Assembly: GCF_000428825.1 (NCBI RefSeq)
Contig: NZ_AUAR01000013.1
Location: forward strand, 1 to 64,000
Direction: 5' to 3'
From: Desulfomicrobium escambiense DSM 10707
GTDB taxonomy: Bacteria > Desulfobacterota > Desulfovibrionia > Desulfovibrionales > Desulfomicrobiaceae
Length of the DNA: 64,000 nucleotides
Below the pieces are notes generated by a model, which was not told where the DNA came from, did no database searches, and saw only the letters and a list, made by a program, of their open reading frames with translations. Shown in pieces: positions 5,346 to 64,000 of the stretch (its first letter is position 1; the number at the start of each line of letters is the position of its first letter). A program made the translations under genes and the position numbers.

Positions 5346-5547
5346 GAAACGCGTGCAGAAAGTCGCCGGGGCAAAGTACGGGCAGATCTCCGCATACCTT
5401 TGCCGGGAAGTGGGCCAATTTTTCGGTTATGAGGCCGCCCAAACACGGCGGAATCAATAAGGACACAACCAACATTTTCGACATGAAGTCTGCGTATCCT
5501 CCGGGAAGATTGGCGGGCATGGCTCGCGAAGTTCCGGTTAATGACTT

Positions 5548-5592
5548 GACTAGGTTTAGTCGATTTAATATTTGAGCAATCTTTCAAATGTT
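5548..5592. promoter_or_regulatory. candidate ArsR/SmtB-type operator
   Basis: Two dyads lie just before the metal regulator. GACTA-N4-TAGTC spans 5548-5561. AATATTTGA and TTCAAATGTT form a longer imperfect palindrome at 5567-5592. The second resembles the TGA/TCA-centred dyads bound by SmtB/CadC-type repressors and lies 25-50 bases upstream of the ATG at 5617, where a bound repressor would block transcription of the regulator-permease pair. Confidence 0.55.
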
Positions 5593-5616
5593 GAATGTCA
5601 TTTCTGTGAGGCAAGC

Positions 5617-5976
5617 ATGGATGAGATCTGTGAAGTCCGTTGCATCCACCCGGCCAATGTTGCCCGGGCCAATCTGGGGCGGACGGAGGCGCGGGAGCTG
5701 GAGGAGGCTGCGGCGCTGCTGGGGGCCATGGCCGACCCGACCAGGGTCAAGATCCTAGACGCCCTGCGCATGGGGGAGCTGTGCGTGTGCGACCTGGCGG
5801 CCGTGCTGCAGATGACCGTCTCCGCCGTCTCGCATCAGCTTCGGCTGCTGAAGGCCGCACGACTGGTGCGGGGCAGGAAGGACGGCAAGGTGGTCTTCTA
5901 CACGCTGGACGACGAGCACGTGGAGAGGATTCTCGACACGGCCCTGGAACATTGCCGGGAAAGGGGGGCACAATGA
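5617..5976 (+). CDS. ArsR/SmtB-family metal sensor, CadC-like
   Basis: 119 residues from the ATG at 5617 with GTGAGG at 5606-5611; a TTG at 5572 in the same frame is less likely because it overlaps the operator dyad. Cys5, Cys9 and the ELCVCDL motif (Cys56 and Cys58) reproduce the alpha3N metal site known in CadC, which binds Cd, Pb or Zn. The C-terminal helix DDEHVERILDTALEHCRE also has the spacing of the alpha5 zinc site. The winged-helix DNA-binding part is SAVSHQLRLLKAARLV. The stop overlaps the start of the efflux permease (ATGA), so the pair forms a metal-inducible operon. Predicted action: repress until metal binds. Confidence 0.9.
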   Translation: MDEICEVRCIHPANVARANLGRTEARELEEAAALLGAMADPTRVKILDALRMGELCVCDLAAVLQMTVSAVSHQLRLLKAARLVRGRKDGKVVFYTLDDEHVERILDTALEHCRERGAQ

Positions 5977-14672: not shown

Positions 14673-15413
14673 CTACAGGATCTGGCTGAGGAACTTCTGG
14701 GTGCGCGGATGTTCCGGGTTGGTGAAGAAGTGCTCGGGCGTGCCCGTCTCGACGATCTGGCCGTGGTCCATGAAGATGACGCGGTCGGCCACCTCGCGGG
14801 CGAAGCCCATCTCGTGGGTGACCACGACCATGGTCATGCCCTCGCGGGCCAGGGTGACCATGACGTCCAGGACCTCGCCGATCATCTCGGGGTCCAGGGC
14901 CGAGGTGGGCTCGTCGAAGAGCATGATCTTGGGGTTCATGGCCAGGGCGCGGGCAATGGCCACGCGCTGCTGCTGCCCGCCCGAGAGCATGGACGGGTAG
15001 ACCTCGGCCTTGTCCTTGATGCCGACCTTGTCCAGGAGGGCCAGGGCCCGCTTCTTGGCTTCCAGCTCCGGCACCTTCTTGAGCTTCATGGGCGCCATGG
15101 TCAGGTTGCCCATGACCGTCTTGTGCGGGAAGAGGTTGAAGCTCTGGAAGACCATGCCCAGTTCCTGGCGGATCAGGTTGATGTCGCTGCCCGCGGCGCT
15201 CACGTCCTTGCCGTCGACGACGATGCTGCCGCTGTCGATGGTCTCAAGGCGGTTGATGGAACGCAGCAGGGTGGACTTGCCCGAGCCGCTGGGACCGATG
15301 ATGACGACCTTCTCGCCCGGATTGATGGACAGGCTGACGTCGTTCAGCGCCTGCAGCTGGCCGAAGAACTTGTAGACGTTCTTGATGTCGATGATGGGCC
15401 TAATCCCGTTCAT
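14673..15413 (-). CDS. polar amino acid ABC transporter ATP-binding protein
   Basis: 246 residues, GlnQ/HisP type. Walker A is GPSGSGKST, signature LSGGQQQR, Walker [13 protein letters not shown], and the H-loop VVVTHEMGF. All catalytic elements are intact. The start overlaps the end of the permease gene by 14 bases. It powers uptake of a polar amino acid together with the next two proteins. Confidence 0.94.
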
Positions 15414-16206
15414 AATAGTTCAACCTCTGCTCCATTTTGCTGACGCCCTTGGACAGGAAGAGCGTGATGACCAGGTAGACCAGGGCCACCATGGTGTAGG
15501 CCTCGAAATACAGGAAGGATTCGCTGGCGAACTCGCGCCCGCGCCGCATGAGGTCGGCCACGGCCAGCACGGACACCAGGGAGCTGTCCTTCAGCAGGGC
15601 GATGAACTCGTTGCCCACGGGCGGGAGGATGGTCCGCCAGGCCTGGGGCAGGATGACGTACATCATGGTCTGGGCGCGGTTGAAGCCCAGGGAGCGCGAC
15701 GCCTCGGACTGCCCCTTGTCGATGGAGTCGATGCCGGCGCGGAAGACCTCGCCCATGTAGGCCCCGTAGCAGATGCCCATGGCGGCCACGGCCGCGGCCA
15801 TGGGCGGCAGGTCCTTGAAGAATTCCAGGCGGCCCAGGGCGTAGTAGATGTAGAAAAGCTGCACCAAGAGCGGGATGCCGCGGATGATCTCGACGTAGGT
15901 GGACGCGATCAGGTTGACGACCTTGTTCCGGGACAGGCGTCCCAGTCCGGTGACGAGCCCCAGGACCAGGGACAGGAGGATGGACAGGATGGTGACCTGG
16001 AAGGTCACGTACACGCCGTCGGGCAGAAATTTGAGCACCCTCCAGTAGGGTTCGGGCTGGGTCACGCAGAGGTAGACGATGACGGCGATGGCGCCGAAGA
16101 AGGTCATCCACCAGGCCGTGAACAGCCCTGCGTCTTTCTTGACGGGAATGGCGGCGCCGTCGCCGATGTCGATCTTGACGGCTTTCTTGTGGAAATGTTG
16201 GTTCAT
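15400..16206 (-). CDS. polar amino acid ABC transporter permease
   Basis: 268 residues, HisM/GlnP type. Several membrane helices are seen; the EAA loop is [20 protein letters not shown], which docks the ATPase. An N-terminal extension of about 30 residues precedes the first helix. A single permease suggests a homodimeric channel. It lies downstream of the binding-protein gene, with a strong terminator hairpin in between. Confidence 0.93.
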
Positions 16207-16230
16207 GACAGGCCTTGTCGGGGTCGGGTG

Positions 16231-16266
16231 AAAAAAATGGCGAACCGGGGAATTCCCGGTTCGCCA
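16231..16266 (-). terminator. terminator/attenuator between binding-protein and permease genes
   Basis: A perfect 12-base stem (TGGCGAACCGGG with CCCGGTTCGCCA, loop of 5) is followed on the minus strand by seven Ts. Partial read-through would give more binding protein than membrane components, as is usual for such importers. Confidence 0.88.
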
Positions 16267-16275
16267 TGGCTCATG

Positions 16276-17016
16276 CTATTTGGATCCGAACCATTTGGCG
16301 TAGATCTTGTCATACTCGCCGTTCGCCTTGATGGCGGCCAGGCCCTTGTTGATCAGGTCGGCGATCTCCTTGTTGCCCTTGTTCACGGCGAAGCCCAGGT
16401 ATTCGGGCTTTTCGGGGGCGATGAGGAAGGCCAGGGTCAGTTTCTGGGAATACTGCTCGTGCTGCAGGGCGTAGTTGGAGGCCACGGCGTCGTCGGCGAT
16501 GACGGCGTCCAGGCGGCCGTTGTAGAGGTCTTCCACGGCCAGGCCGATCTCGTCGTAGGACTTGGCGGTGGCGCCTTCGATCTTCTTGCACACGAAGTAG
16601 CCGGTGGTGCCCATCTGGGAGGCGATGGTCTTGCCCTTCAGGTCTTCAACGGTCTTGATGGCCGCGTCCTTGGCGGTCACGACGCCCTGCTTCACTTCAA
16701 AGTAGGGGTCCGTGAAGTCCATGGTCTGCTTGCGTTCGTCGGTGATGGACACCGAGGAGGCGATGGCGTCGTACTTGCCGGAGGCCAGACCCGCGAAGAT
16801 GCCGTCCCAGGCGGTGTTCTTCAGGACGGGATTGAAGCCGGCGGCCTTGCCGATGGCGGCCACGATTTCGGGACCGAAGCCGACGATGTTCTTGTTGGCG
16901 TCGACCATTTCCATGGGCGGATAGGTCGCGTCCACCGCGAAGACGACATCCTTGGCCAGGGCGTTACCGGCCATCAGGAAAAGAGCCAGCAGAGCAAGAG
17001 CAATCCGAGTGCGCAT
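16276..17016 (-). CDS. polar amino acid ABC transporter periplasmic binding protein
   Basis: 246 residues with a Sec signal peptide (cleavage likely after GNALA, near residue 22). FAVDATYPPMEM, AWDGIFAGLASGKYDAI and DFTDPYFEV are typical of the family-3 solute-binding proteins for Glu, Gln, His, Arg or Lys. The exact ligand cannot be read. GGAGG precedes the ATG. It is the first gene of the transporter operon. Confidence 0.94.
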   Translation of the reverse strand: MRTRIALALLALFLMAGNALAKDVVFAVDATYPPMEMVDANKNIVGFGPEIVAAIGKAAGFNPVLKNTAWDGIFAGLASGKYDAIASSVSITDERKQTMDFTDPYFEVKQGVVTAKDAAIKTVEDLKGKTIASQMGTTGYFVCKKIEGATAKSYDEIGLAVEDLYNGRLDAVIADDAVASNYALQHEQYSQKLTLAFLIAPEKPEYLGFAVNKGNKEIADLINKGLAAIKANGEYDKIYAKWFGSK

Positions 17017-17105
17017 ACGTCCTCCAAACCAGGTTGATGATTTCCGTAAAAAGAGTCCCACGGACCAAAACGACAAAAAATTGTTAAAGAATTGCCACCC
17101 TCCGG

Positions 17106-19775
17106 TCAAGAAAGTGCTGCGGCGTCGCGCGCTTCCCCAGCCAGGGAATTGGCCAGGCGCTGCGCCAGGGCCAGCTGCTCCTCGCGCGTCGCGACTTCGG
17201 CGTTGAGCACCGCGCACTTCACGGCGCGCAGGATGGTGGAGTAGTGGGGGCCCGGCGGCAGGCCCAGGGCGGCGATGTCGCGGCCTGAGACGGCGATCTG
17301 CACGTCCTGCAGATGGGTCAGGTACTGGGACACAGCCTTGCGCAGCTCTTCCTTGCGCTGCCGGGCCATGGTGTAGAGCAGCCCCTCCAGGGAGAGCGGG
17401 GCGAGGATCTCGTAAAGGTCCGCCGGCCGCCCTTGGTTTCTGGCCCACTGGGCCAGCTGCATGGCCGTGAAGCGCAGCTGCCGGCGCGTGGACTCGACCA
17501 GTTCCACGCGACGCGGCGGGAACTGCAGGCGCGCCGTCAGGGCCAGGACCTGGTGGGCGTCGAAGCCCGAGACCAGCCCCAGGAAGTAGACGATCCAGAT
17601 GTCCGGAGCCTCGCGGCGAAACAGGAGCTTGTACCACGTGATGACCTTCTCAATCTCCTCCAGCAGGGCTTCCTTGGTCTGGGGGAAGTGGAGCAGGGGG
17701 CTGATCTCCTGCAGCAGGCCCAGGTCGCGCATGCGCACCAGGGCGTCCACGGGCGCGCTGTCCTCGGCCAGGAGCCGCAGTTCGTGGCGGATGCGCGCCC
17801 CCGAGAGCCGCTGGAAGATGTTGAGGCGCACGGCGTTCTTGATGAGCCGCTCGGTCTGGCTGCCGATCTTGAACTGGAAGCGCTGCTCGAAGCGGATGGC
17901 GCGGATGATGCGCGTCGGGTCCTCGACGAAGGACAGCGAGTGCAGGACGCGGATGATGCCGTCCTTGATGTCCTGCTGGCCGCCGAAGAAGTCCACCAGC
18001 CGGCCGAAGGTCGGCGGGCAGAGGTGCACGGCCAGGGTGTTGATGGAGAAGTCGCGGCGGTAGAGGTCCATCTTCAGGGACGATAGCTCCACGATGGGCA
18101 GGGCGGCCGGGTATTCGTAGTATTCCAGGCGGGCCGTGGCCACGTCGATCTTCTGGCCCGATGGCAGGATGAGCACGGCCGTGCGGAACTTGAGGTGCGG
18201 CCGCACCCGGGCCTGGAGCCGTTCGCCCAGGGCGTGGGCGAAGGCCACGCCGTCGCCCTCCACCACCAGATCGATGTCGTCGTTGGGGATGCCCAGCAGC
18301 ATGTCGCGCACGAAGCCTCCCACGGCGTAGACCTCCACGCCCATGTCCTGGGCCGTCTGCCCGGCCAGCTGCAGCAGCGCGACGGTGGCTCGCGGCAGCC
18401 GTTCGGACAGCACGTGGCGGATGCTCTTCTCCTGGCGCTTGTCCGAGAGGAGGGACTCGGGGATGCGGGCCGGCTCCTGGACCATCAAATTGATGAGGTC
18501 GGTGCGCGTGATGACCCCGACCATGGCGTGATCGCGCAGGACCGGCACCAGGCGCTGGCGACGTCCGAGGATGATCTCCATGACCTGGTAGAGGTCCTGG
18601 TCCTCGGACACGGCCTGGAAGTCCTCGAGCATGTACTCCGTGACGCGTTCGGAACCCAGGCCGTGCCCCACGGCCTTCTCCGCCAGGCTGCCCTCGATGA
18701 TGCCGCAGACCTGGTCCCCGAACTCGACCACGGGCAGGGCCTTGAGGCCGTAGCGGGTCATGACCTCCGCGGCCTGGGCCACGGTCTGCGCGGCCTCGAT
18801 GCGCACCACGGGCGCGGACATGAAATCCCTGACCACGAGCTGCGGATTGATGTGGGAGTAGAGCAGCGCGAAAAGTTCATCCCTTACTTGAGATATCGTG
18901 CGATCCTTGATGGAGGCCGACGCGGCGTAGGCGTGGCCGCCGCCGCCGAAGGAGGCGCAGACCACGCCCACGTCCACCTCCGGGGCCTTGCTGCGGGCCA
19001 CGAGCTGGATGCGGTCGCCCATGCGGCCGATGGCGAAGAGGACGCGGATGTTCTCCATGTCCATGAGCTTGTGGGTCAGCAGGGCGAAGTCGCCGACGTA
19101 GGACTCCAGGGAGACCTCGGTCAGCACGATGTCCACGCCGTTTATGGTATGGGTCGCGGCCGACTCGATGAGTTCCGAGAGGATGGCCACCTGTTCCGTG
19201 GACAGCTCGCGGCTCATGATGTCGCGGACGACGTCGAGGTCCATGCCCATGGTCCGCAGCCAAGCCGCGGCCTCGAAGTCGTGCTCCGTGGTGGACTTGA
19301 AGGTGAAGCCGCCCGTGTCCTCGAAAATCCCCAGGCCCAGGATGGTGGCCTCGTCGGCGTCCACGGTCAGGCCTTTGGCCTTGAGCATGTCAACGATGAT
19401 GGATGTGGTTGCGCCCCAGGGCAGGTACACGTCCACGACGCCGCGCAGGCCTTCGTCGTCGGGCGGGTGGTGATCGTAGATGTGGATCTCCAGGCCCGGC
19501 ACGGCGAAGAGGGGCTCCACGTGGACCAGGCGCGAGCGCTGGCGGGTGTCCACCACGACGAGCTTGCGGATCAGGGCCGGGTCGATGTCCTTGAGCGTCG
19601 TGAAATTGAAGAGGTACATGGCGCTCTGGATGAAGTAATCCTTAAGGGAGCTCTCCTGGGTGCCCGGGAAGACCAGGGCCGCGCCGGGGTAGAGCTTGCT
19701 TACGGCGATCATGGCGGCCAGGGCGTCGAAGTCGGCGTTGGCGTGGCAGGTGATGACCGTTGTCGGATGACTCAT
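17106..19775 (-). CDS. DHH phosphoesterase - CBS pair - tRNA nucleotidyltransferase fusion (A-adding type)
   Basis: 889 residues in three parts. Residues 1-~300: DHH/DHHA1 phosphoesterase-like domain (CHANADFDALAAM, VVVDTRQ, IYDHHPPD, SFGGGGHAYAAS). Residues ~315-430: two CBS repeats, a possible adenine-nucleotide sensor. From ~475: class-II nucleotidyltransferase with VGGFVRDMLLG, DDIDLVVEGDG, the RRDFSINTLA motif and the DPTRIIRAIRFE helix. Long proteins of this build are known as A-adding enzymes that cooperate with a CC-adding enzyme to finish tRNA 3' ends; a CC-adding partner is not in this window. The roles of the DHH and CBS parts are not established. One base separates it from xerD upstream. 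Confidence 0.9.
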   Translation of the reverse strand: MSHPTTVITCHANADFDALAAMIAVSKLYPGAALVFPGTQESSLKDYFIQSAMYLFNFTTLKDIDPALIRKLVVVDTRQRSRLVHVEPLFAVPGLEIHIYDHHPPDDEGLRGVVDVYLPWGATTSIIVDMLKAKGLTVDADEATILGLGIFEDTGGFTFKSTTEHDFEAAAWLRTMGMDLDVVRDIMSRELSTEQVAILSELIESAATHTINGVDIVLTEVSLESYVGDFALLTHKLMDMENIRVLFAIGRMGDRIQLVARSKAPEVDVGVVCASFGGGGHAYAASASIKDRTISQVRDELFALLYSHINPQLVVRDFMSAPVVRIEAAQTVAQAAEVMTRYGLKALPVVEFGDQVCGIIEGSLAEKAVGHGLGSERVTEYMLEDFQAVSEDQDLYQVMEIILGRRQRLVPVLRDHAMVGVITRTDLINLMVQEPARIPESLLSDKRQEKSIRHVLSERLPRATVALLQLAGQTAQDMGVEVYAVGGFVRDMLLGIPNDDIDLVVEGDGVAFAHALGERLQARVRPHLKFRTAVLILPSGQKIDVATARLEYYEYPAALPIVELSSLKMDLYRRDFSINTLAVHLCPPTFGRLVDFFGGQQDIKDGIIRVLHSLSFVEDPTRIIRAIRFEQRFQFKIGSQTERLIKNAVRLNIFQRLSGARIRHELRLLAEDSAPVDALVRMRDLGLLQEISPLLHFPQTKEALLEEIEKVITWYKLLFRREAPDIWIVYFLGLVSGFDAHQVLALTARLQFPPRRVELVESTRRQLRFTAMQLAQWARNQGRPADLYEILAPLSLEGLLYTMARQRKEELRKAVSQYLTHLQDVQIAVSGRDIAALGLPPGPHYSTILRAVKCAVLNAEVATREEQLALAQRLANSLAGEARDAAALS

Positions 19776-56320: not shown

Positions 56321-57148
56321 ATGAAACGTTCCATGCATTTTGCGGTCCTGGCGGCCCTCTTTCTCTTCACGTGCACGGCGGCGCGGGCCGACATGCTCCA
56401 GCAGTTCGCGGGCCAGAAGGGCAAGATCGACATCGCCGGCGGCACGGCGCACATCCCGGTCATGAACGAGGCGGCCAAGCGGATCATGACCGTCAACCCG
56501 GACATCCGCATCACCGTCGAGGGCGGCGGGACCGGAGTGGGCGTGCAGAAGGCGGGAGAGGGCCTGGTGGACATCGGCAACACCGGCCGCGCCCTGTCCG
56601 CGGAAGAGGTCGCCAAGTACGGCCTGGTCTCCTTCCCCTTCGCCGTGGACGGCGTGACCGTCGTCCTGAATCCGGCCAACGCCGTGAAGGAGCTGACCGC
56701 CGCGCAGGTTCAGGACATCTTTGCCGGCAAGATCACCAACTGGAAGGACGTAGGCGGGGCCGACGCGGCCATCACCCTCTACACCCGCGACGAGGCCAGC
56801 GGCACGCGCGAAGTGTTCTGGGAGAAGCTGCTGAAGAAGGGCGCCGTGGCCGACAAGGCCAACGTGGTCGCCTCCAACGGGGCCATGAAGGTCGCCGTCT
56901 CCCAGGACGCATCCGGCATCGGGTACATGAGCATCGGGTTCGTGGACGCCACGGTCAAGGCGCCCCTGCTCGACGGCGTGGAGCCCTCCCAGGCCAACGC
57001 CACCTCCGGCGCCTACAAGGTCGCCCGCAAGCTGTTCATGAACACCAAGGGCGCCCCCCAGGGCCTGACCAAGCTCTTCATCGACTACGTGACCGGTCCG
57101 GAGTGCACGGACATCATCTCCAAGGCCGGGTACATCCCGCTCAAGTAG
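56321..57148 (+). CDS. pstS: phosphate ABC transporter binding protein
   Basis: 275 residues, AAGGGAGG before the ATG. Signal peptide to about ARA at residue 23. GGGTGVGVQKAGEGLVDIGNTGR binds phosphate; TLYTRDEASGTREVF is also typical. First gene of pstS-pstCA-pstB. No clear Pho box was seen upstream. Confidence 0.92.
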   Translation: MKRSMHFAVLAALFLFTCTAARADMLQQFAGQKGKIDIAGGTAHIPVMNEAAKRIMTVNPDIRITVEGGGTGVGVQKAGEGLVDIGNTGRALSAEEVAKYGLVSFPFAVDGVTVVLNPANAVKELTAAQVQDIFAGKITNWKDVGGADAAITLYTRDEASGTREVFWEKLLKKGAVADKANVVASNGAMKVAVSQDASGIGYMSIGFVDATVKAPLLDGVEPSQANATSGAYKVARKLFMNTKGAPQGLTKLFIDYVTGPECTDIISKAGYIPLK

Positions 57149-57152
57149 GCGC

Positions 57153-58961
57153 GTGCGACAGACTCACACCTGCCGGCAAAATTCCACCCGGTTTTGCCGG
57201 CAGCTTTTTTACGACCGGGCGGCCAGGGCCCTGTCCTGCGGCGCGGGGTTCGTCTCCCTGGCGACGCTGGCCGCCATTTTCGCCTTCCTGGCGCTCTTGA
57301 GCCTGCCCCTCTTCACCCAGGGGCAATGGGACAGCGTCCTTCAGACGGTCTGGCGTCCCTTCGAGGGCCGGTACGGCATCGGGCCCATGGTCGCCGGATC
57401 CCTGATCCTGAGCTGCTCGGCCTTCGCCCTGGCCTACCCGCTGGGCGTCGGCGTCTGCCTTTTCGTTCTCGGGACCAAGGGCGGGCTCCTGCGCCGCGCG
57501 ACCATGGGGGTGGTGACCTTCATGACGGCCATCCCCACCGTGGTCTACGGCTTCGTGTCCGTCTTCCTCCTCGTGCCGCTCCTGGGCAGGGCCTTCGGCG
57601 GCAGAGGCCCGTCGCTGCTGGCCGCCGTCCTGACGCTGGCCCTGCTCGTCCTGCCGACCATCGTCCTGTTCCTGCACGGGTCCATGCGCGAGACCGAGGA
57701 ACGCACCCGCCTGACCAGCGCGGCCCTGGGGTTCACACCCATGCAGGCCCTGCTTCTGGTGGTCCTGCCCGGATCGGCTGCCGGGCTGCGCACGGCGGCG
57801 GTCATGGGCTGGTGCCGGGCCCTGAGCGACACCCTCATCCCCCTCATGCTGGCCGGCAACGCGCCGCAGTTTCCGGAGTCCCTGTTCGACTCCGTCCGCA
57901 CCCTGACGGCGCACATCGCCCTGGTCGTGGCCATGGACAACAGTTCACCGGCCTTTCACTCCCTCTTCGCCTGCGGACTGACGCTCTTCGGCGTCAGCCT
58001 CGCCGCGCAGGCCGCGTTGCGTCCGCGGTCCGGAACGTCCGGACCCATGAGTGATTGGACCCTCGACCTGCTGTCCTTCATGGCGGCGCGCCCCGCATGC
58101 CGGGCCCTGGTCTCGGTCTGGGCCTTCCTGTCCGCCGCGGCGGTGCTGGCGTCCGTCGGCGCCCTGCTCGTCTTTCTGCTGTCGCGCAGCCTGCCCGTCC
58201 TCGACCTGCGCCTGTTTTTCGGCGACACGCCCATATTGTCTGCGCTCCTTGGGCGGCAGCCGGTCTGGGACGGGCTTTTCGCCGCCTGCGCCGGAACCCT
58301 GGCCCTCGTAATCCTGGCCTCGCTCATGGCCATCCCCGTGGGCATCGCCGGGGGCGTCGCCCTGTCCCAGTACCTGCGGGGCCCGTCGGCCGCGGCCCTG
58401 CGCTTCTCGGCCAACGCCTTGGCCGGCGTGCCGTCCATCGTCATGGGCCTTTTCGGCTTCTCGCTGATCATCCTCCTGCGGCACACCGTCGCGCCAGAGG
58501 CCAACACAAGCCTGCTGCTCTCGGCCGTGTGCATCGCCCTGCTCGTCCTGCCGTACACCATCAACGCCACGGCCCAGTCCCTGGACACCCTGCCCAAGGA
58601 GCTGCGCCTGCTGGGCCCGAGCCTGGGCATGACCTCCTGGCAGAGCCTGCGGCGCATCCTGCTGCCCGCCGCGGGCCGGGGGATTCTCGGCGGCGTGGTC
58701 CTGTCCATGGGCCGCGCGGCCGAGGATACGGCCGTCATCCTCCTGACCGGGGTCGTGGCCCACGGCGGCCTGCCGCGCGGGCTCTTCGACAAGTTCGAGG
58801 CCCTGCCCTTCACCATCTACTACCTGGCCGCCCAGTACCAGAGCGCCCACGACCTGGCCAAAGGCTTCGGCGCGGCCCTGACCCTGCTCGCCCTGACCGT
58901 CCTGCTGTTCTGCATCGCGCGGGCCCTGCAGGGCCGCATGGAGAGGGAATGGAAACACTGA
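57153..58961 (+). CDS. fused PstC-PstA phosphate permease
   Basis: 602 residues in one frame from a GTG at 57153. The first ~290 residues are PstC-like (IPTVVYGFVSVFLLVPLLG, SAALGFTPMQALLLVVLP, VMGWCRALSDTL). Residues ~300-602 are PstA-like (IPVGIAGGVALSQYLRG, GVPSIVMGLFGF, ARGILGG-type stretch then MGRAAEDTAVILLTG). Separate genes are usual. A terminator hairpin lies inside the first 20 codons, so the exact start is uncertain. It begins 4 bases after pstS and overlaps pstB by 13. Confidence 0.88.
   Translation: MRQTHTCRQNSTRFCRQLFYDRAARALSCGAGFVSLATLAAIFAFLALLSLPLFTQGQWDSVLQTVWRPFEGRYGIGPMVAGSLILSCSAFALAYPLGVGVCLFVLGTKGGLLRRATMGVVTFMTAIPTVVYGFVSVFLLVPLLGRAFGGRGPSLLAAVLTLALLVLPTIVLFLHGSMRETEERTRLTSAALGFTPMQALLLVVLPGSAAGLRTAAVMGWCRALSDTLIPLMLAGNAPQFPESLFDSVRTLTAHIALVVAMDNSSPAFHSLFACGLTLFGVSLAAQAALRPRSGTSGPMSDWTLDLLSFMAARPACRALVSVWAFLSAAAVLASVGALLVFLLSRSLPVLDLRLFFGDTPILSALLGRQPVWDGLFAACAGTLALVILASLMAIPVGIAGGVALSQYLRGPSAAALRFSANALAGVPSIVMGLFGFSLIILLRHTVAPEANTSLLLSAVCIALLVLPYTINATAQSLDTLPKELRLLGPSLGMTSWQSLRRILLPAAGRGILGGVVLSMGRAAEDTAVILLTGVVAHGGLPRGLFDKFEALPFTIYYLAAQYQSAHDLAKGFGAALTLLALTVLLFCIARALQGRMEREWKH
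57170..57210 (+). terminator. terminator/attenuator hairpin at the start of the pstCA frame
   Basis: CTGCCGGCAAAA pairs perfectly with TTTTGCCGGCAG over a 10-base loop, followed by CTTTTTT. It is 22 bases after the pstS stop and inside the predicted pstCA coding start. Confidence 0.85.
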
Positions 58962-59710
58962 ACCCGCATTTCACCCTGCGCGGCGTGGGCGTGACCCTGA
59001 ACGGCCGCCGCATCCTCGAAGGCATCGACCTCGATATCCCCAAGGGGCGCGCGACCTTCATCATGGGACGCTCCGGGGCCGGCAAGACCACCCTGCTGCG
59101 CGTGCTGAACCGCCTCAATGAATGCTTTCCCGGCAGCGAAACCTCCGGAGAGGTGCTGCTGCACCTGGATTGCGGCATCGTCCGGCCCTACGCCGGCGAC
59201 ATAGCCCTGCCGGAGCTGCGGCGCCTGGTCGGCATGGTCTTCCAGCACCCCAACGTCCTGCCCATGAGCATCGCGGGCAACATCGCCATGCCACTGACCA
59301 CGGTCCGCGGCTGCGGCCGCGGCGAGGCCATGGAGGCGGCCCGCGTGGCCCTGCAGGAGGCGCGGCTCTGGGAGGAGGTCCGCGACAGGCTGGATGCCGA
59401 CGCCCGCACCCTGTCGGGCGGCCAGCAGCAGCGCCTCTGCCTGGCCCGGACCCTGGCCATGAAACCAGATGTCCTGCTCCTGGACGAGCCCACGTCGTCC
59501 CTCGACTTCATGGCGGCCAGGGGCATCGAGGATCTGCTTGCGGGGCTGAAGGGCCGCTACACGCTGGTGGTCGTCTCCCATGGGAGGGAGTTTGCGGCGA
59601 GACTGGCGGACGACATCGTCATCCTGCGGGACGGACGGGTGCACGGGCATTCCGGGGACATCGACGCAGACCTCGAGGCTGGTCAGGAGGGACTTGAAAC
59701 GCGTCCTTGA
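58949..59710 (+). CDS. pstB: phosphate ABC transporter ATPase
   Basis: 253 residues from the ATG at 58949 (GAGAGGG upstream). Walker [18 protein letters not shown], Walker B VLLLDEPTSSLD and H-loop VVVSHGREF are intact. RVLNRLNECFPGSETSGEVL is the PstB-like segment after Walker A. No phoU gene follows. Confidence 0.9.
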   Translation: METLNPHFTLRGVGVTLNGRRILEGIDLDIPKGRATFIMGRSGAGKTTLLRVLNRLNECFPGSETSGEVLLHLDCGIVRPYAGDIALPELRRLVGMVFQHPNVLPMSIAGNIAMPLTTVRGCGRGEAMEAARVALQEARLWEEVRDRLDADARTLSGGQQQRLCLARTLAMKPDVLLLDEPTSSLDFMAARGIEDLLAGLKGRYTLVVVSHGREFAARLADDIVILRDGRVHGHSGDIDADLEAGQEGLETRP

Positions 59711-59794
59711 AAGCAGCGGCCTTCGCGCCGCATGCGATACGGCGCCCACCAATCACCTGACCGGTGAAACGACGGGCACCGGCTCGTTCCAGCG

Positions 59795-60055
59795 CTATTT
59801 CTTCAGTTCCTTGTGGCAGAACCACCAGTCGTAGCATTCGTGTTCTTCCATGCGCTTCTTCGCATCCTTTTCACTGGTCGCCGGGGGAATGATTACCCGG
59901 TCGCCGATAAGCTCGTTATGGGGCCACCCGGCAGGTATCGCACCCTGCTTGTCCGAAACCTGCAACGCCTTCACCGTGCGGACGATCTCGTCCATGTTCC
60001 GACCGATCTCCTGCGGATAGTACATGATGAGCCGCACCTTTCCGTCCGGGTCGAC
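59795..60055 (-). pseudogene. C-terminal fragment of a Prx6-type peroxiredoxin
   Basis: On the minus strand 86 codons and a TAG encode VDPDGKVRL, then YYPQEIGRNMDEIVRTVKAL, SDKQGAIPAGWPHNELIGDR and ECYDWWFCHK. This is the C-terminal third of a one-Cys/archaeal-type peroxiredoxin. The N-terminal part with the peroxidatic Cys is missing: at 60050-60055 the frame runs into formate dehydrogenase sequence read backwards. Confidence 0.88.
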
Positions 60056-61633
60056 AAGAGCGTCAACTGGAAGCAGCACCAGCCCAAGTACATGGCCAGT
60101 CTGCTCAAGGCCATGTTCAAGGACGCGGACCTCGACACCGGCTACTCGTGGCTGCCCAAGCTCGACGACGGCCAGGACGCCTCCTGGCTGGTCCTCTTCG
60201 ACGAGATGCTCAAGGGCAAGTTCAAGGGCTTCTTCGCCTGGGGCATGAATCCGGCTGTCAGCGGCGCCAACAGCCACAAGACCCGTGAAGCCCTGACCAA
60301 GCTGGACTGGATGGTCAACGTCAACATCTACGAGAACGAGACCGGCTCTTTCTGGAAGGGCCCGGACATGAACCCCAAGGACATCAAGACCGAAGTCTTC
60401 TTCCTGCCATGCGCGGTGTCCGTGGAGAAGGAAGGGTCCATCACCAACACCGGCCGATGGGTGCAGTGGCGCTACGCCGGCCCGAAACCCATGGGCAAGT
60501 GCCGTCCCGACGGTGACCTGATCTATGAACTGGCCCTGAAGCTCCAGGAGATGTACTCCAAGGACAAGGGCGCCTTCCCCGGACCAATCCTGGGGCTGAA
60601 CACCCAGGATTGGGGCAACGGGCATGAGTTCGAGCCGCGAAAGGTGGCCAAGCTCATCAACGGCTACTACCTCAAAGACACGGTGGTGAAGGCCGCCGAC
60701 GGCACCGAGACCGTCATGAAGGCCGGCAGCCAGGTCAACGGCTTTCCCAGCCTGAAAGACGACGGCTCGACCTGCTCCGGCAACTGGATCTATTGCGGCG
60801 GCTATACCGACAAGGGCAACCTTTACGAGCGCCGCGACAAGACGCAGACGCCCGAGCAGGCCACGGTCGGCATGTTCCCCAACTGGTCCTGGGCTTGGCC
60901 AATGAACCGGCGCGTGCTCTACAACCGGGCCTCGGTGGACCTGAACGGCAAGCCCTACCAGCCAAACAAGCCTGTTTTGGCCTGGGACGGAGCGAACAAG
61001 AAGTGGCTCATCGACGTGGTCGACGGAGGCGGCGACGCCGGCGCCAAGCACCCGTTCATCATGCAGCAGCACGGCATGGGCGCCCTTTACGGCCCCGGCC
61101 TGAACGAAGGCCCGTTCCCGGAGCACTACGAGCCCATGGAATGCCCCGTGGCCGAGCACCCGTTCTCCAAGACGCTCAACAACCCCGCAGCGCTCATCTT
61201 TGCCGGCGAGGAGAAGAAGCGCGCCGTGTGCGACCCGCGCTACCCCTTCATCTGCACTTCCATCCGCGTCACCGAGCACTGGCAGACCGGCCTCATGACC
61301 CGCTGGCAGCCCTGGCTGGTCGAGGCCCAGCCCCAGATGTTCTGCGAGATGAGCGAGGAACTGGCAGAAGTCAAAGGCATTAAAAACGGCGAGAAGGTCA
61401 TTCTGGAGAACCCGCGTGGCCAAACCTGGGCTATAGCCATCGTCACCAAGCGCCTGAAGCCCATGAACATCATGGGCACGCCGATGCATCTCGTCGCCAT
61501 CCCCTGGCATTATGGCTGGATCTGGCCCAAGGAAGGCGGCGACGCGGCCAATCTGCTGACGCCCAGCGTCGGCGACGCCAACACGAGCATCTCGGAAACC
61601 AAGGCCTTCATGGTCAACGTGAAGAAAGCGTAA
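60050..61633 (+). pseudogene. fdhA: formate dehydrogenase alpha subunit, 5'-truncated
   Basis: About 525 codons from SVNWKQHQPKYMASLLKAM to the TAA match the C-terminal half of the Mo/W-bisPGD formate dehydrogenase large subunit (usual length about 1000). The missing N-terminal half carries the Tat signal, first [4Fe-4S] cluster and active-site Sec/Cys. The C-terminal cofactor-binding domain is complete (HWQTGLMTRWQPWL, PMHLVAIPWHYGW). The open frame continues leftward only as antisense of the peroxiredoxin fragment. The first in-frame ATG is 60092. AAGGAG for fdhB overlaps its stop. Confidence 0.88.
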
Positions 61634-61642
61634 GGAGCGAAC

Positions 61643-62377
61643 ATGTCCGGAAAATCATTCTTCGTCGATCTGACCAAATGTACGGCCTGCCGCGGCTGCC
61701 AGGTGGCCTGCAAGCAGTGGAACAAGCTCCCGGCCGAGGAGACCAGAAACCACGGGTCCCATCAGAACCCCATGGACGTCTCGGCCATCACCTACAAGAC
61801 CGTGCACATGAAGGAAGTGGCCGACGACAAGGGCTTCATGGCCGCCTGGCTGTTCTTCCCCGAACAGTGCCGGCACTGCACCGAACCCCCGTGCAAGATG
61901 ACCGCCGACGCTTACGACGACAAGGCGATCATCCAGGACGAGGCCACGGGTGCAGTCATCTTCACGGAAAGGACCAAGGATCTCCCGGATTTCGATGAAA
62001 TCCGAGAGGCCTGTCCCTACAACATTCCGCGTCAGAACGCGGAAACAAAGGTCATGACCAAGTGCACCATGTGCCTTGACCGCGTGCAGAACGGCCTGAA
62101 GCCAGCCTGCGTGCAGTCATGCCCCACCGGAACCATGAACTTCGGAGATCGGGACGAAATGCTGGCGTTGGCCGAAAAACGACTGGCCGAGGTGCAGAAG
62201 AAATACCCGGACGCGGTGTTGGGCGACGCCGAGTCCACCAGGGTCATCTATCTGTACCAGGTTGATCCCAAATCGTACCACCCGTACTCGGTGGCCGACG
62301 CGTCGATGCCCGGCCTCATGAACCGCAAGGCCATGTTCGCCAGACTGTTCGGCTCGAGATCCAGAAGCAAGGCCTAA
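61643..62377 (+). CDS. fdhB: formate dehydrogenase beta (Fe-S) subunit
   Basis: 244 residues, AAGGAG at 61632-61637. Four [4Fe-4S] clusters are predicted from CTACRGCQVACKQW, CRHCTEPPC, CTMC and CVQSCP with ACPYNIPRQ. The C-terminal membrane anchor of E. coli FdnH is absent, as in the soluble periplasmic enzymes of sulfate reducers. It is intact, though its alpha-subunit gene is truncated. Confidence 0.93.
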   Translation: MSGKSFFVDLTKCTACRGCQVACKQWNKLPAEETRNHGSHQNPMDVSAITYKTVHMKEVADDKGFMAAWLFFPEQCRHCTEPPCKMTADAYDDKAIIQDEATGAVIFTERTKDLPDFDEIREACPYNIPRQNAETKVMTKCTMCLDRVQNGLKPACVQSCPTGTMNFGDRDEMLALAEKRLAEVQKKYPDAVLGDAESTRVIYLYQVDPKSYHPYSVADASMPGLMNRKAMFARLFGSRSRSKA

Positions 62378-62394
62378 GGGCCTCCTCCATCGGC

Positions 62395-62425
62395 AGGCCG
62401 GGAAGGCAACTTCCCGGCCTTTCTT
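62395..62425 (+). terminator. intrinsic terminator after fdhB
   Basis: AGGCCGGGAA pairs perfectly with TTCCCGGCCT over a 6-base loop, followed by TTCTT. Confidence 0.82.
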
Positions 62426-62557
62426 GCGTGCCACTGGCGTGTTCGACATGCCACAAGCGATAGGAGTTTTCGATTGCGGCCCGGCGCATCCATCGCATCA
62501 ATCGTTTTGACATAGCCCCAGGTTGCATTCACAGGCTGAATGAAGGAGCACGCCGCA

Positions 62558-63349
62558 ATGCATATCGAACACATTCTCGAACAGGGCTCCGGAGCCCGCA
62601 ACGAAGACTGCCTGATCATGGACGGCAACATCTTCGGTGTGTTCGACGGCGCCACCAGTCTGGACGGGGCCTGTTTCGGGGACGGTGAGAGCGGCGGATC
62701 CCTGGCTTCTTCCATCGCCGGGCAGGCATTTCTGCGCAACCATCATCCCCTGCTGCGGCTCGGAGTGGAGGCCAACGACGCCATCAGGGCCGGCATGGAG
62801 TCCCGCCGGGTGGACATGTCGAGTCGCCGCGGACTGTGGAGCGCCAGCGCCGCCGTGGTCCGGCTCCGGGACGGGGCCGTCGAGTGGTTCCAGACCGGCG
62901 ATTGCCAGGTGGTCTTCATCGACGGGGACGGAGGCTTCAGGCTGCCGGCTGTCAGGGAAGACCACGATTATTCGACCCTGTGCATGATCAGGGAGCGAGG
63001 TCGCTTTCACCCGGAGGTGCAGGCGCTGATTGAGACGGTGCGGGAAGGCATGAACCGCGACTATGGCGTGCTCAATGGAGAGCGGGAGGCGATCGGCTTT
63101 TTCCGTGCGGGCACGGAGCCTGTCGGCAACGTGAAGAGCGTGCTCCTGTTCACCGACGGGCTGGACGTGCCGTGCTCGTCCCCCGCGCGGAAAAAGGACT
63201 ACTCATGTCTGGTGGGCATGGCGTGCGAACTCGGACTGCGCGGACTTCGCGACCACGTGCGCGGCCGCGAGGCTGCCGACCCCGATATCGAGTACTATCC
63301 GCGCTTCAAGATGCACGACGACATCGCCGCTGTCGCAATCCATTTCTAA
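62558..63349 (+). CDS. PP2C-family protein phosphatase-like protein
   Basis: 263 residues from the ATG at 62558, with GAAGGAG at 62541-62547; an ATG at 62540 is the alternative. GARNEDCL with GVFDGAT, TGDCQVVFI, LLFTDGLD and HDDIAAVAI match the metal-binding Asp motifs of PP2C enzymes in order. It may dephosphorylate Ser/Thr proteins; no kinase is encoded nearby. It converges with the next gene, overlapping by four bases. Confidence 0.78.
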   Translation: MHIEHILEQGSGARNEDCLIMDGNIFGVFDGATSLDGACFGDGESGGSLASSIAGQAFLRNHHPLLRLGVEANDAIRAGMESRRVDMSSRRGLWSASAAVVRLRDGAVEWFQTGDCQVVFIDGDGGFRLPAVREDHDYSTLCMIRERGRFHPEVQALIETVREGMNRDYGVLNGEREAIGFFRAGTEPVGNVKSVLLFTDGLDVPCSSPARKKDYSCLVGMACELGLRGLRDHVRGREAADPDIEYYPRFKMHDDIAAVAIHF

Positions 63350-64000
63350 ACCTCCGCTTGAGCGTTCATGGCGTTCCCGTACACCACTTCGACGCGGGCG
63401 TAGATGCCCTCCCAACCGAAGGGCTCCGTGGTTATGCGGACATAGTCCTGGTCAATTCCCACTCCCCTCGTCACATCCGCGACGGCGTCCCGCAGCGCCC
63501 GCGACAGCCGCAGTTCCAGCAGCGGTTCGTCGGCCTTGAACGGTCTGTCCACGGTCTCCAGGGGTGGCAGTTCCACCATGCGCACCATGGGCGGCGGCGA
63601 GTCGCCGAACAGCTCCCTGGAACCGGGCAGGTCCGTGGTCACGATCCGGCAGCCGCAGGCCATGGCTTCCAGCAGGACCAGCGGCAGGCCCTCGAAGAAC
63701 GAGGGTAGCACGAAGATGTCGCTTAGCCGCATGAGGCCCCCGAGTTCCCGGTGGGACAGAACGCCGTGAACCGTGACCCGGTCACCGTGCTCGGCGGCCA
63801 GCCGCAGGCACAGGTCCCGTTCCGCCCCGCTGCCGCCGCCCACCAGATGCAGGTGCCACGGCGCCTCGACCTGGCGCAGGCTGCGCAGGAGCCAGGGCAC
63901 GCCCTTGGAGGAATCGAGCTTGCCCGCGTAGAGTAGCTGCACCCGGCCGGGAATCCGGTCCCGGCCCTCGGAGAAAAAACACAGTTCGTTGTACCCGCCG
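63346..64000 (-). CDS. GT4 family glycosyltransferase, partial
   Basis: The C-terminal 218 codons are in the window; the start lies beyond base 64000. YAGKLDSSKGVPWLL, HLVGGGSG and FVLPSFFEGLPLVLLEAMAC (E-x7-E) are the nucleotide-sugar domain of family 4. Donor and acceptor are unknown; wall or capsule polysaccharide synthesis is typical. Confidence 0.88.
   Translation of the reverse strand, partial: GGYNELCFFSEGRDRIPGRVQLLYAGKLDSSKGVPWLLRSLRQVEAPWHLHLVGGGSGAERDLCLRLAAEHGDRVTVHGVLSHRELGGLMRLSDIFVLPSFFEGLPLVLLEAMACGCRIVTTDLPGSRELFGDSPPPMVRMVELPPLETVDRPFKADEPLLELRLSRALRDAVADVTRGVGIDQDYVRITTEPFGWEGIYARVEVVYGNAMNAQAEV

Follow-up and report, generated by a model that had tools for sequence, protein, structure and literature searches.

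The locus and its two gene ends

The DNA studied here, which we call the window, is the stretch of bases 1–64,000 of a contig of 135,682 bases (C11) from Desulfomicrobium escambiense DSM 10707, a sulfate-reducing bacterium. Its draft genome (G000) has 3,782,107 bases in 38 contigs and is rated 100% complete and 0.54% contaminated. In this window the 3' ends of two genes on opposite strands are joined to each other. The features of the locus are the following, with identities to other genomes of the genus (G002, G010, G023):

57153–58961, plus strand: permease-type gene of the left flank, which we take to be a fused PstC/PstA gene; identity of 74% with its positional counterpart in G002 and 96% in G023
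58949–59710, plus strand: ATPase gene of the left flank, presumably pstB; 93% identical to G023 and 76% to G002
59795–60057, minus strand: 3' end of a Prx6-type peroxiredoxin gene (prx stump), last 86 codons and stop; NF009668 positions 132–223 of 224
60055–60057, no strand: joint where the two sides share about 3 bases at most (CAA), placed by the alignments of both sides with relatives and by their limits
60056–61633, plus strand: 3' end of fdhA (fdhA stump), last 525 codons and stop; TIGR01553 positions 491–1009 of 1009
61643–62377, plus strand: intact fdhB, iron-sulfur beta subunit of 244 amino acids, open frame
62540–63349, plus strand: PP2C-like phosphatase gene of the right flank (Pfam PF13672); it also follows fdhB in G002 and G010

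The sequence-only reading had described a minus strand coding only for the last 86 or so residues of a Prx6-type peroxiredoxin, and a plus strand coding only for the last 525 or so residues of a formate dehydrogenase alpha subunit. Both descriptions are correct. The prx stump (59795–60058 in the match) aligns almost to the end of the NF009668 (PRK13189) model and covers positions 125–215 of the best PDB peroxiredoxin chain. Its score of 122.1 bits is below the cut-off of 211, and it thus falls outside the Prx6 type as defined by this model. Its only Pfam domain is 1-cysPrx_C. The full-length protein of G002 matches AhpC-TSA, the domain which carries the peroxidatic cysteine and is absent from the stump.

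The fdhA stump (60053–61630 in the match) has 688.8 bits against the curated TIGR01553 cut-off of 814.2, so that it does not qualify as an alpha subunit. It aligns with residues 454–977 of 977 in PDB 1h0h_A, the periplasmic formate dehydrogenase FdhAB, presumably from D. gigas: as in that enzyme it reaches the C-terminal end, and an intact fdhB then follows (135 bits with TIGR01582, under the cut-off of 334.7). It differs from 1h0h in having no N-terminal half, and hence neither Fe4S4 domain nor Cys/Sec position, and is therefore a fragment. In the stump Molydop_binding is above its cut-off and Molybdopterin below. A match to Molybdop_Fe4S4 occurs in P0001 alone, the half which is lost here and in which the ICHSST or I-TGA-HSAT position is located as well. 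We take this Cys/Sec position and the AhpC-TSA positions of the peroxiredoxin to be catalytic. Since they lie in the lost halves, together with the Fe4S4 domain, both stumps are probably inactive: neither prx nor fdhA should work.

The intact locus in relatives and the missing sequence

In G002 both genes are full length, prx at L024:5397–6053, and the flanks are the same. Window positions 56394–59638, 59795–60057 and 60056–63482 align with L024:1989–5236, 5397–5659 and 14826–18266, in the same order and on the same strands: both ends of the joint are collinear with an intact relative, as in a chromosomal deletion scar. The two stumps are thus the collinear ends of one ancestral locus, which speaks for an internal deletion and makes a random chimeric contig unlikely. 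A full-length FdhA stands beside fdhB and the PP2C gene at this locus in both G002 and G010.

The two break points are separated by 9.17 kb in G002. This interval contains the rest of prx, two HGD-D family genes, an activator-like gene, ABC transporter genes, including one for an NMT1-like binding protein, and fdhA up to codon 486. The HGD-D genes (PF06050) and the NMT1-like gene (PF13379) have Pfam matches in their G000 copies; the names of the activator and ABC transporter genes are our presumption. By the lengths in G002, G000 lacks 394 bases of the prx gene and 1458 of fdhA, plus intergenic DNA. The earlier suggestion that sequence has been lost between the two genes is thus supported, as both 5' halves are missing.

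The same reading proposed a search for these halves in the rest of the genome, which we have carried out. With G002 L024:5600–14900 as a DNA query, the best 40 of 173 candidates in G000 were scored and gave 26 matches. They correspond to a block at C11:75356–81467, to fdhA genes on contigs C36 and C1 and to both flanks of the joint; the rest, none longer than 528 bases, fall within the block and mostly in its ABC ATPase gene. Among these best 40 candidates there was no prx 5' sequence, and the fdhA 5' half was represented only by the two paralogues. In protein searches of G000 all candidates were scored, so that absence is firmer there than in the DNA searches, which scored the best candidates only. 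The N-terminal half of the G002 FdhA found full-length matches on C36 and C1 and eight weaker partial ones elsewhere; the full G002 Prx found the stump and five distant places with 30–39% identity. Beyond the stumps these searches gave only paralogues: the prx and fdhA 5' halves are absent, as in a deletion scar.

The block between prx and fdhA of G002 is present in G000 at C11:75356–81467 (L053), 15 kb downstream of the joint. It was moved rather than lost. It is found downstream of the PP2C gene in G000, G023 and G003 and between prx and fdhA in G002: it has changed place as a unit. A move of this block (two HGD-D proteins and the ABC transporter) as the single event which caused the joint is not supported, because G023 and G003 also have it downstream of PP2C and lack the joint.

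Sixteen genomes of the genus were compared: G000 and 15 others, among them G002, G003, G004, G007, G009, G010, G021, G022 and G023. With window positions 59600–63400 as a DNA query and up to the best 18 candidates scored per genome, all 16 had some match, and only G000 matched across the joint. The other matches which reach it start at query positions 456–459 on the fdhA side or end at 434–458 on the prx side. A wider search of 21 genomes including G000 (19 with a match, up to the best 23 candidates scored per genome) also found G000 alone across the joint. None of 27 plasmid records covers 80% of the query; the eight listed cover 13–16%, inside fdhA.

The locus is variable within the genus. 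In G023 and G003 pstB adjoins PP2C, with 136 bases between the matches in each, and no prx or fdhAB lies at this place. In the stretches read of G021, G007 and G022, the HGD-D/ABC genes, or part of them, precede PP2C without fdhAB. The stretch read of G010 has the HGD-D genes, fdhA, fdhB and PP2C and no prx; this genome is presumably a published assembly from Illumina and Nanopore reads (PMC10190684). Among the 15 other genus genomes, close full-length prx genes are found in G002, G021 and G004 (86–100% identical to the G002 query), and a more distant one in G009 (66%); the best matches in the rest do not exceed 39%. A contig scan gave 290 confirmed relatives of the prx stump, and no title among the best 80 of them names Desulfomicrobium.

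DNA identity between G023 and the window contig is 93% over 55.5–59.7 kb, 83% over 62.6–71.2 kb and 95% over 75.4–79.3 kb. The PP2C protein of G000 is 72% identical to that of G023 and 75% to that of G002; ten other marker proteins of G000 and G023 are 77–99% identical, nine of them 86–99%. As G023 lacks the whole segment and PP2C is divergent, the segment could be a product of recombination, in which case the deletion may have taken place in the donor.

Formate dehydrogenase isoforms and the retained fdhB

The fdhA stump has 87% amino acid identity with the FdhA at this locus in G002, 89% with that of G010 and 78% with the paralogue on C36. It groups with the G002 and G010 proteins with a support of 1.000 (FastTree, 16 sequences). 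These two proteins read ICHSST, whereas I-TGA-HSAT, with an in-frame TGA, is found in C36 and in the other copies inspected (G002 C9, G010 at 1.1 Mb, G023, G022). The FdhA at this locus is therefore a Cys-type isoform. Both G002 (L024:13368–16403) and G010 (L026:10417–13449) have it besides a TGA-containing (selenocysteine-type) FdhA, and its locus is the one which is broken or missing in other genomes. The mention of Desulfomicrobium that we found in PMC13397495 concerns a hydrogenase.

As the sequence-only reading had noticed, fdhB is kept here without a full alpha gene; it did not include the two other full-length FdhA genes of G000, on C36 and C1, with one TGA each. Elsewhere in G000, the copy nearest to the fdhA stump is 85% identical at the DNA level. 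The locus FdhB has 96% identity with the FdhB encoded next to the C36 fdhA (window 61643–62377 versus L056:6474–7205), as compared with 78% for the FdhA C-terminal halves, and 88.5% with those of G002 (C6) and G010 at the locus. Unlike the fdhA stump, it groups with the fdhB genes of C36, G023 and a further genome, G008; in a tree of 15 sequences these four have a support of 1.000. From these identities it looks like fdhB only, without fdhA, underwent gene conversion between C11 and C36. The different grouping of the two genes suggests conversion inside the clade, and thereby that the locus has been resident there for some time. One could imagine that the stump locus has been kept because its fdhB doubles the beta subunit dose for the selenocysteine FdhA of C36: the beta subunit of one isoenzyme would have been rewired after loss of the Cys-type alpha subunit, and the conversion restricted to fdhB would be its trace. 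We consider this quite improbable.

The joint, its age and its origin

In the alignments with relatives the prx side ends at 60055 or 60057 and the fdhA side starts at 60055–60058. On the prx side the relatives read GTCAACAAT, ATCAACAAT or ATCAACGAT, compared with GTCGACAAG in the window; on the fdhA side we find GACCCCAAG in C36 and G023, GACCCCAAA in G010 and GACCCAAAA in G002. The bases common to both sides are CAA (60055–60057) when G010, C36 or G023 guides the fdhA side, and only AA with G002. By formula, at least three shared bases are expected by chance in 5% of random joints. A break at about 60050–60055 had been proposed in the sequence-only reading: it is present, but the limits of the alignments place it at 60055–60057. 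The hexamer GTCGAC (60050–60055) had been thought to fit both genes. It nearly fits prx, which has GTCAAC in G002 and ATCAAC in G021 and G004, but not fdhA: the four homologues aligned have GACCCC (three) or GACCCA (one) in its position. An event by microhomology, also proposed there, may thus have used a few bases, about three at most, and not the hexamer.

Over its 525 codons the fdhA stump is free of stops. On its branch dN/dS is 0.093 (bootstrap 0.061–0.134, 200 replicates), as compared with 0.064 (0.036–0.116) on the G002 branch and 0.041 (0.016–0.135) on the G010 branch: it is not clearly above them and corresponds to purifying selection. The prx stump gives no usable dS versus G002 or G021. 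An open frame with purifying selection means that the break is either young or artefactual. Under simulated neutral change of 0.05 substitutions per site (uniform sites, kappa 2), the fdhA stump remained free of stops in 4% of 600 runs. Pairwise dS between G000 and G023 is 0.094 for pstA and 0.165 for pstB, so that the break should be at most about as old as the split of these two genomes.

We conclude that a recent chromosomal deletion in a Desulfomicrobium lineage has very probably left the joint as its scar. The ancestral order would have been that of G002: pst-like genes, prx on the minus strand, fdhA and fdhB on the plus strand and the PP2C gene. A deletion would then have removed the 5' ends of both genes, by the G002 lengths 394 bases for prx and 1458 for the Cys-type fdhA, together with any DNA that separated them, and the two 3' stumps would have been joined with about three shared bases or fewer. 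We infer a single event by illegitimate joining, in real DNA.

The main alternative is an assembly or library artefact: the strain would have intact prx and fdhA genes, and the assembler or a chimeric template would have dropped about 2 kb or more. The undecayed fdhA frame, without a stop codon or a clear sign of relaxed selection, fits it equally well; the genome is a 38-contig draft, and the joint is matched in none of the 15 other genus genomes (best candidates scored, up to 18 per genome). Against it, the two sides belong to a single collinear locus, the contig ends lie 60 kb and 75 kb away from the joint, and the searches did not recover the missing halves elsewhere in an assembly rated complete. 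Repeat collapse is unlikely, with only about three shared bases and no repeat seen at the joint in a self-comparison of C11:1–97000. The sequence-only reading had left the choice between loss and a chimeric assembly: loss is favoured by the missing sequence and its collinear counterpart in G002, and a chimera is weakened since both stumps come from one locus. An artefact is therefore unlikely, with a minor share of the probability.

It is far less probable that the joint belongs to a real fused gene. A plus-strand frame of 606 amino acids is indeed open across it (59813–61633), antisense prx running into the FdhA frame, and its product would combine an N-terminus from antisense prx with the C-terminal half of FdhA. 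Nevertheless the joint is not crossed by any match in the other genomes, 20 in the wider search and 15 in the genus (best candidates scored), matches to protein families start at residue 2 of the FdhA portion, which lacks the Fe4S4 domain, and no promoter-like site was found in 59650–62600, a weak test with 0.7 expected by chance. Least credible of all is a cloning artefact at GTCGAC, which we take to be a SalI site: it stands at the prx-side end, but the fdhA side has no such site in any of the four homologues, and the hexamer is one synonymous third-codon change away from the G002 prx.

The deletion scar agrees with the ordinary deletion pseudogenes known in bacterial genomes: two stumps that share few bases or none where they meet, and an intact locus in a relative. 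We found no difference from them, and the locus is most likely a case of ordinary gene loss with two dead stumps. It matters little beyond annotation, where automatic pipelines might report an active formate dehydrogenase or a fusion protein, neither of which is likely. For the genus, it shows that several Desulfomicrobium genomes have no Cys-type FdhA locus at this place, and D. escambiense keeps two TGA-containing FdhA genes.
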